From: Chloroflexota bacterium
GTDB taxonomy: Bacteria > Chloroflexota > Anaerolineae > JAAYEA01
DNA length: 47,400 nucleotides
Assembly: GCA_012689325.1 (NCBI GenBank)
Contig: JAAYEA010000079.1
Location: forward strand, 1 to 47,400
Direction of reading: 5' to 3'
Under the pieces are notes generated by a model that did not search any database, was not told the DNA's origin, and worked only from the letters and a program-made list of their open reading frames with translations. The position numbers and the translations under genes were made by a program. Below are positions 4,823 to 6,287 of this stretch, piece after piece (within the stretch, counting starts at the first letter, position 1; each line of letters starts with the position of its first letter).

Positions 4823-4850
4823 TTGACATCCGGGCTTGTCTGTGTATAAT
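4823..4850 (+). promoter_or_regulatory. Consensus promoter of the structured RNA
   Basis: Perfect TTGACA (4823-4828), a 16-nt spacer and perfect TATAAT (4845-4850). Both hexamers match the sigma-70 consensus, the best match in the window. The predicted start at about 4857 falls within 2 nt of the first base of the closing helix of the RNA. Confidence 0.85.
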
Positions 4851-4858
4851 GATGGCTA

Positions 4859-5261
4859 GAAGAGGTCCTGAGGAGCTAAAGCAAACCTTAGGCGAGAGCA
4901 CCCTAAAAAGCTGAATATCGCGACTAGAGAGAAGCTCACAGAGAAGGTTTATGCGTAAGCTAGTGGAAAGGTTTCAAAAAGCCAGAAAGCTAGCGATCCA
5001 GAGTGGGGAACCGCAAGGTTCACTCGAGCTGTGGTGAACCAGGGAGTAGTAACCGAGCGAAGGCCTGGGGTCGAAAGCTGGCAAGCGGTAAGTTGGACTG
5101 TGAGATGACTCGATAGACCAGCCAGGAGCAAAATCCCTGGGTGGGATGCAAAGCCAGACCCGAAAAGGGCGATGGCGAGCATGGACGATAGGCAGCAAGA
5201 CTGGGAAACCGGCGGGGGCGCTGGAACCAAGGTAAGAGCAGAGGTTACTTGGGGCCTCTTC
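4859..5261 (+). ncRNA. Unclassified structured RNA, about 400 nt
   Basis: No protein-coding frame is plausible here, yet the stretch has a perfect promoter immediately upstream and a strong terminator 11 nt downstream. The 5' end (4859-4868) pairs with the 3' end (5252-5261) in a 10-bp helix with a single G-U, as in large folded RNAs. Internal elements: AAACCTT (4883-4889) can pair with either of two AAGGTTT copies (4944-4950 or 4968-4974); GCTAG/CTAGC (4959-4963 with 4990-4994); a GCAA-tetraloop hairpin (5001-5025); CCAGG/CCTGG (5039-5043 with 5064-5068); GCTGG/CCAGC (5077-5081 with 5118-5122); and a 3' hairpin (5227-5251). I do not find the conserved RNase P P4 sequences, the tRNA-like ends of tmRNA, the SRP Alu or GGAAGC motifs, or a group II domain V. 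The family is therefore left open. The region between 4679 and 4822 holds nothing else I can identify. Confidence 0.75.
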
Positions 5262-5271
5262 GCGTATACGG

Positions 5272-5308
5272 AAAAAAAGGAGCGCCGTGCAAGCGGCGCT
5301 CCTTTTTT
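5272..5308. terminator. Bidirectional terminator between the RNA and hpt
   Basis: A run of 7 A (5272-5278), a 9-bp GC-rich stem (5279-5287 with 5294-5302), loop TGCAAG and 6 T (5303-5308). It can stop the RNA on the plus strand and the convergent hpt operon on the minus strand. Confidence 0.92.
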
Positions 5309-5311
5309 CGT

Positions 5312-5908
5312 CTAGTTCGGCGTTGCCGGTGGGGGCGCATAGACCTCGGGCTTGAGCACGCCGATAAAGGGCAGATTGCGGTATCTCTGCTTGTAATCCA
5401 GCCCATAGCCCACCACAAAATGATCCTCGATCTGAAAGCCGCGAAAGGCGATGGGCAGGTCGATGAGGCGAAAGCTCTGCTTGTCCAAGAGGGCGCACAC
5501 CTTCAGGCTGGCCGGGTGGCGCGTGCGCAGGATGTTGAGGATGTAACTCAAGGTGAAGCCAGTGTCGATAATATCCTCGACAAAGAGGACGTGGCGCCCC
5601 TCGATCGGCTCCTCCAGGTCCTTGATCAACCGCACCACCCCGCGTGTGCGCTCGGAAGGGCCATAGCGCGAGATGGACATGAAATCCACCGAGGCCGGGA
5701 TGGTGATGGCCCGCGCCAGGTCAGCCACGAAAAAGATGACGCCGCGCAGCACGCCGATGATCAGCAGGTCCTTGCCCTGGTAAGCCTCCGAGATCTCGGC
5801 GCCCAACTCGACGACCCGCTGCTGAATCTGCTCCGGGGTGAGCAGCACGTGCGCGATATCTCGCAGCAACTCGGGCGGGCCCAGGGCATCAATCGGGGTC
5901 TTGGCCAT
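5312..5908 (-). CDS. hpt: Hypoxanthine phosphoribosyltransferase
   Basis: 198 residues; start at 5908 (MAKTPID) with GAGGAGG upstream. The enzyme joins hypoxanthine or guanine to PRPP to give IMP or GMP in purine salvage. The PRPP loop is VEDIIDTGFTL in the C-terminal half, and the family segments LLIIGVLRG and DFMSISRYG are present, as is FVVGYGLDY. The N-terminus is slightly longer than usual. It overlaps the preceding nuclease-like gene by 20 nt and is the last gene of a three-gene operon that ends at the bidirectional terminator. Confidence 0.93.
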   Translation of the reverse strand: MAKTPIDALGPPELLRDIAHVLLTPEQIQQRVVELGAEISEAYQGKDLLIIGVLRGVIFFVADLARAITIPASVDFMSISRYGPSERTRGVVRLIKDLEEPIEGRHVLFVEDIIDTGFTLSYILNILRTRHPASLKVCALLDKQSFRLIDLPIAFRGFQIEDHFVVGYGLDYKQRYRNLPFIGVLKPEVYAPPPATPN

Positions 5909-6287
5909 TGTTCTTGATCGCCTCCTCGCCCACCAGATCGTCCTCGCGGCCCTGCAGACCGTATTTGACCAGCAACTCGCCAAAGGCCCGCCGGTTCACC
6001 AGCTTGAGCTGGACCTCCGGGTACAGTTCGCGGAGCCGCCGAATCTTGCGGTGTTTTCTGGTGATGAGCTTTTGGCGCAACGTGGTCAGCTCGATATAGA
6101 GGTTATACTCCGGGAGGTAGAAATCGGGGCTGAAAGACTCGACCACCTCGCCCGCCTCGTCCCACCGGAGCGGAAAGGTGGTCGGCTCGTATTGCCACCC
6201 GATCTGGTAAAAGTCCAGAATGTGGCTGAACTCTTCCTCGCTGGGGTGCGCAAAAGCCTTGGCTTGTTTCACTTCAGGATTGTTCAT
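5889..6287 (-). CDS. Small PD-(D/E)XK nuclease-like protein
   Basis: 132 residues of unknown function. The segment SPDFYLPEYNLYIELT has the spacing of the PD-(D/E)XK nuclease core (Pro-Asp, about 10 residues, then Glu-x-Leu), but the expected Lys after the Glu is Thr; Lys residues follow a few positions later in a very basic helix (RQKLITRKHRKIRR). It could be an active variant, a dead nuclease or a nucleic-acid-binding fold. It shares a 4-nt ATGA overlap with the kinase gene upstream and a 20-nt overlap with hpt downstream, so the three are translated together, which hints at a role in nucleotide metabolism. Confidence 0.75.
   Translation of the reverse strand: MNNPEVKQAKAFAHPSEEEFSHILDFYQIGWQYEPTTFPLRWDEAGEVVESFSPDFYLPEYNLYIELTTLRQKLITRKHRKIRRLRELYPEVQLKLVNRRAFGELLVKYGLQGREDDLVGEEAIKNNGQDPD

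Follow-up and report, generated by a model that had tools for sequence, protein, structure and literature searches.

The raiA motif RNA is a stand-alone structured bacterial RNA of unsettled function, present in other phyla and next to a different neighbor gene than the RNA analyzed here, and 6S RNA has a long closing helix formed by its two ends. Among the large orphan structured RNAs of bacteria are OLE, GOLLD and ROOL (PMC12286853, PMC9723947), which are families included in Rfam (PMC12286853); OLE is around 600 nt long and forms a dimer, and one ROOL RNA that has been studied measures 659 nt (PMC12286853, PMC9723947). Structured RNAs have also been reported earlier from Chloroflexi, namely the Chloroflexi-1 and pan motifs (PMC2864571).

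In this work we have analyzed a locus in a 47,400-nt stretch of DNA from a Chloroflexota bacterium (contig JAAYEA010000079.1, hereafter the window), for which the letters alone had led to the proposal of a structural or catalytic RNA of large size, belonging to a new family or to a known one that has diverged. The lack of any Rfam match and the strong covariation described below support the first of these options and, as far as can be judged from sequence, we consider it nearly certain that the window RNA represents a real new family of structured RNA.

Structure and transcription signals of the window RNA

According to its fold and to a full-length homologue in the genome G001, the RNA spans 405 nt of the forward strand (4858 to 5262), from the 5' to the 3' strand of a helix, P1, that closes it. 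P1 is formed by 18 pairs between positions 4859-4877 (GAAGAGGUCCUGAG-G-AGCU) and 5243-5261 (GGUUACUUGGGGCCUCUUC, the most conserved stretch in the family), with one internal mismatch. The original prediction of a 10-bp helix joining both ends (4859-4868 with 5252-5261), a GCAA-tetraloop hairpin and the absence of a fitting protein agrees with what we observe: the helix is present, with one G-U pair, and extends to the full 18 pairs; the hairpin (GAACC-GCAA-GGUUC) lies at 5008-5021; and no open reading frame of at least 60 amino acids exists within the RNA on the forward strand, where the three frames contain 4, 7 and 8 stops. The counterpart of the GCAA hairpin in G001 is made of other stem pairs, several of them changed on both sides. 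A second interior hairpin, H (4959-4994, forward strand), consists of a stem GCUAG/CUAGC, an A-rich internal loop UGGAAA/AGAAAG and an upper stem GGUUU/AAGCC. The minimum free energy of the whole molecule is -153.2 kcal/mol, compared to -123.6 (sd 5.8) in dinucleotide shuffles (z -5.1), a much stronger deviation than that of the reverse strand (z -2.5).

The promoter, start site and terminator anticipated for this RNA were likewise found. A sigma-70 type promoter (TTGACA at 4823-4828, spacer of 16, TATAAT at 4845-4850, forward strand) matches the consensus at 12 of 12 positions, is the only such site in 3.5 kb and places the predicted start around 4857, just before P1 at 4859; G001 has an identical 12/12 promoter at equal distance from its RNA. 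In the 37 members examined the best promoter reached at least 11 of 12 positions in 28, the maximum in 370 shuffles being 10, and predicted starts either coincide with P1 or precede it by 37-50 or 135-150 nt. Several members (for example L121 and L130-L133; around 4790 in the window) also have a CTTAAA sequence some 20 nt ahead of the -35 box, present within 70 nt in 9 of 37, which is possibly an upstream activating element.

Behind the RNA, a strong intrinsic terminator that folds as a hairpin (5279-5308, forward strand) has the stem GGAGCGCCG/CGGCGCTCC (5279-5287/5294-5302) and a T run at 5303-5308, so that the window transcript probably ends around 5308, past P1. In many members a T run directly follows P1, and the window uses this separate hairpin instead. 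Given that an A run precedes the stem and a T run follows it, the window terminator would be able to act in both directions. In the region between 5270 and 5309, A and T runs lie on either side of the terminator, which could be shared by the RNA and the hpt gene on the reverse strand. Promoters and terminators are evidence of intended transcription rather than proof of it and, without RNA data, transcription of the locus remains an inference.

Members of the family and their distribution

When 60 related genomes were searched with BLAST, a single match was informative, that in G001 (same taxonomic family as the window), where both RNA ends were matched separately, in the right order and with the right spacing. 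Its contig JAIOAV010000016.1 harbors a complete 422-nt homologue, whose first 15 and last 19 bases are identical to those of the window RNA and which is also accompanied by a terminator and a convergent hpt. The two interiors differ widely; of the 80 pairs retained by RNAalifold for these two sequences, 19 are changed on both sides. Another BLAST match, in G049, adjoins an hpt but shows no P1 pairing and was discarded as a relative.

Further members were sought in two steps: 396 genomes of the class were searched with the conserved 3' arm, mismatches being tolerated, and afterwards the hpt flank was inspected in 199. The 3' motif alone was rejected as evidence, because it matched 42 of the 396 genomes and a reversed control pattern matched about as many; the true members, in around 30 of those 42, were told apart by 5'-arm pairing, promoter and site. 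In a two-arm scan nearly all members scored above 36, with reversed sequence reaching no more than 28.7 in 106 loci. Altogether, 49 member sequences were collected, counting tandem copies, with P1-to-P1 lengths from about 163 to 417 nt; one of them (L009/L140) is located in contig DYEI01000274.1 of Anaerolinea sp. They represent 19 family-level groups of class Anaerolineae; the presumed Chloroflexota origin is supported and becomes narrower, with Anaerolineae as the class. In 28 hpt loci from other Chloroflexota classes no paired-arm match stood clearly above the reversed-sequence background, although only hpt surroundings were examined there. None of the plasmids searched contained a member, and the sole 5'-motif match in viral contigs was a chance one, in a phage coding gene. 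Since genomes were sampled, prevalence figures are approximate, and divergent members have surely been missed.

Two genomes carry tandem copies (L140, 896-1434; L141, 2151-2682), each copy of about 265 nt with its own P1, under one promoter and with one terminal T run; as a sign of homo-oligomeric assembly this is only a hint. At L145 (G164), a promoter-like site and the 5' domain are kept and the core between the P1 arms is seemingly deleted, a possible natural loss, which indicates that the RNA is not indispensable everywhere.

Genomic site

The window RNA is followed by its terminator and then by a convergent purine-recycling gene outside the RNA, hpt, encoding hypoxanthine phosphoribosyltransferase (5312-5908, reverse strand; TIGR01203, 204.6 bits, cut-off 150). 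As no gene in the sense orientation lies behind it, the RNA is not a leader and a riboswitch is disfavored. A convergent hpt is located just beyond the RNA in most members, including those found by RNA motif alone, and the RNA does not overlap the coding sequence, lying mostly 20-170 nt from the hpt stop. Of the class loci having hpt and an endonuclease-like neighbor, about 23 of 29 contain a detectable RNA. Other classes show the hpt neighborhood without detectable RNA, which suggests that the RNA was probably acquired, or arose, in this class beside an older operon.

The window also encodes a 132-aa protein (5889-6287, reverse strand) that matches nothing in Pfam or NCBIfam. When ten relatives were combined into a profile, T7 endonuclease I was found (3cae, E 5.9e-6) and this, along with the conserved E...PDF...ExT...K, points to a PD-(D/E)XK-type, junction-resolvase-like family. 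This endonuclease-I-like neighbor was rejected as a specific partner of the RNA, since in other classes it also adjoins hpt where no RNA is present.

This arrangement raises the possibility that the RNA regulates the neighboring hpt operon, with the convergent transcript or the shared terminator setting hpt mRNA ends or levels, through antisense action or collision. The idea is favored by the bidirectional terminator of the window and by the fact that the convergent organization with hpt, endonuclease-I-like and cytidylate-kinase-like genes is kept across many families, even in members found without using hpt. However, the RNA stops 28-285 nt short of the hpt stop codon, in seven loci (L119, L120, L121, L260, L263, L274 and L275) hpt lies at a distance of 2-4 kb, is on a different contig or was not detected within 1.5 kb, and such regulation would not need a covarying fold of 400 nt. 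We regard it as improbable, without being negligible.

Interior of the RNA and subfamilies

Interiors do not align across subfamilies, between which they differ greatly, and only P1 and a few motifs are shared. The window subfamily (the window, G001, L260, L263 and both copies of L140 and L141, from four family groups) shares the motif UUGGCAAGCGG and hairpin H, in the form of CGURAG, stem, A-rich loop and stem. For this hairpin, eight arms were cut by hand around the conserved CGURAG and the A-rich loop; all cells are paired in the eight sequences (100%), three of the five outer pairs are changed on both sides and the covariation score is 0.643, compared to 0.206 in shuffles. In the other subfamily members the motif and hairpin H follow each other in the opposite order to that of the window and G001, whose longer RNAs may therefore contain an inserted segment or the remains of a second unit. 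A second subfamily (f21, f23, f28, f38, f39 and f50) has CUCAAAGCGAUGAAGCUUC at about 0.4 of its length, and a third (f31) is compact, its core measuring 180 nt and including a CCAG-GAAA-CUGG hairpin, and has an additional 5' domain. AGUARG was tried as a universal interior motif and turned out to be subfamily-wide only (17 of 40, with 8.6 in shuffles).

The size of the RNA, its multi-branched, A-rich interior and its closed ends resemble those of large catalytic RNAs, and it could be a ribozyme of unknown chemistry. This seems rather improbable to us, given that the interior is not kept across subfamilies, the part conserved in sequence is P1, and no known ribozyme model matches.

Covariation of P1

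Covariation was evaluated on the first set of 37 sequences, which had been picked by sequence motifs and not by pairing, with the arms joined in register; cells count sequences rather than independent events. In P1, 94.1% of cells are paired and 13 of the 18 pairs are changed on both sides. Over the entire structure, pairing is 89.7% and falls to 35-57% when the partner is slid, and none of 500 shuffles equaled any of five measures. With P1 and hairpin H both above their controls, the covariation test proposed for this RNA is passed. One manual choice was involved, in that a bulged base after the first pairs was dropped or kept in each sequence according to which gave the better lower helix. 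This can favor the lower helix only and leaves untouched the upper one, where seven pairs are changed on both sides. Besides pairing, P1 keeps sequence (an A-U pair in 37 of 37 members and U-G pairs in 33 and 28 of 37), and the conservation of both suggests that something binds P1.

Above P1, many members show a symmetrical purine loop of two opposed GGAA strands and also P2 (GGC/GCY), a short helix that in the register used pairs in only 63% of cells; the window RNA has AAA facing AGA instead of the GGAA loop. In many members the 5' arm could also fold into an alternative hairpin, CCAA-GNRA-UUGG, that would exclude the upper half of P1, and this leaves room for a switch, in which the nascent 5' arm adopts the hairpin and must open for P1 to form, a ligand or protein choosing between the two. 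It would account for the constant U-G pairs of P1 through the double use of the U's, and 84.5% of cells do pair in the alternative hairpin, with one pair going from A-U to G-C. The double changes, however, largely go back to a single inherited event in one family group, and only two of the four pairs are made by the window RNA (4865-4877); P1 is far stronger. A switch is a reading in which we place little confidence.

Relation to known RNA families

No match above the gathering threshold of Rfam 15 was obtained with the window RNA or its relatives; when the threshold was relaxed for the window RNA and several relatives, the only matches were short and at chance level. Covariance models of OLE, GOLLD and ROOL did not match at either level, nor did the window RNA match Chloroflexi-1 or pan, both of them in Rfam (RF01698 and RF01749). 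RNase P RNA, tmRNA, 6S RNA and SRP RNA, whose conserved parts had not been recognized from the letters, are each encoded elsewhere in the same genome: RNase P RNA (RF00010) at G000:C508 (288 bits), tmRNA (RF00023) at G000:C562 (173.9 bits), 6S RNA (RF00013), present in 19 of 21 genomes searched, at G000:C65 (63 bits) and bacterial SRP RNA (RF00169) at G000:C369 (66.3 bits). ARAGORN found no tmRNA in the window. Within the open-access literature searched, the family has not been described.

Divergence from a known family (RNase P, tmRNA, 6S, SRP, OLE, GOLLD, ROOL, raiA or an intron) could be invoked, as the RNA resembles the large orphan RNAs in both size and architecture, yet the absence of matches in the RNA and its relatives and the separate presence of the four housekeeping RNAs already disfavor this option, to which we give very little credit. 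That the locus is non-functional, a chance fold or palindromic element, could be argued from its fast-evolving interior sequence and the lack of an observed transcript, but covariation, promoter and site conservation over 19 family-level groups refute it at the sequence level and leave it next to no support.

Proposed role

We favor the explanation that the RNA belongs to a new family of stand-alone structured non-coding RNAs and acts in trans, likely as a scaffold of a ribonucleoprotein; taken as a whole, this statement has in our opinion even chances of being correct. A strong vegetative promoter would give rise to an RNA of 160-420 nt, both termini of which would come together in the long P1 and enclose variable, A-rich hairpins, transcription stopping at P1 or soon after. 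The finished RNA would then act in trans, most likely as the scaffold of a ribonucleoprotein that may recognize P1 and the purine loop above it, although no partner protein is known.

Three considerations favor a scaffold. As the sequence constraint falls on P1 and its U-G pairs, a binding surface seems more likely than a concealed catalytic core. The combination of a strong promoter and a closed RNA suggests a stable and abundant product, for which there are no expression data. Finally, tandem copies each with its own P1 indicate that the P1-closed unit is a module, perhaps with pairing of two units. A bolder version, the RNA core of an unknown Anaerolineae ribonucleoprotein or ribozyme that is dimeric, with two molecules or, in some lineages, two modules per transcript, is possible but doubtful. 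Computational evidence establishes the family, P1, the promoters, the location by hpt and one interior hairpin. The ribonucleoprotein function, and anything that might be said about a target, are inferred only.

An RNA family absent from Rfam thus spans much of an abundant and little-studied bacterial class and, if it were a housekeeping ribonucleoprotein, it would correspond to a cellular machine, so far unnamed, in the whole class. Probing, pull-down and expression tests are feasible now, thanks to an existing alignment, to named sites and to compact forms of 160-180 nt.

Comparison with known systems

The novelty of this RNA resides at the level of the RNA family, since it fits in no described family tested, while orphan large RNAs as such have precedents in OLE, GOLLD and ROOL. 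It differs from these three in its smaller size (160-420 nt), its hosts, the absence of a known partner and of an Rfam match, and the long conserved helix that joins its ends. Lack of an Rfam match also separates it from the raiA motif RNA. With 6S RNA it shares a closing helix from both ends and its own promoter, but sizes differ and a genuine 6S RNA exists elsewhere in the genome. As OLE, GOLLD and ROOL, the new RNA is stand-alone, highly structured and of unsettled function, and the two copies per transcription unit found in two relatives could be set beside the dimer of OLE.
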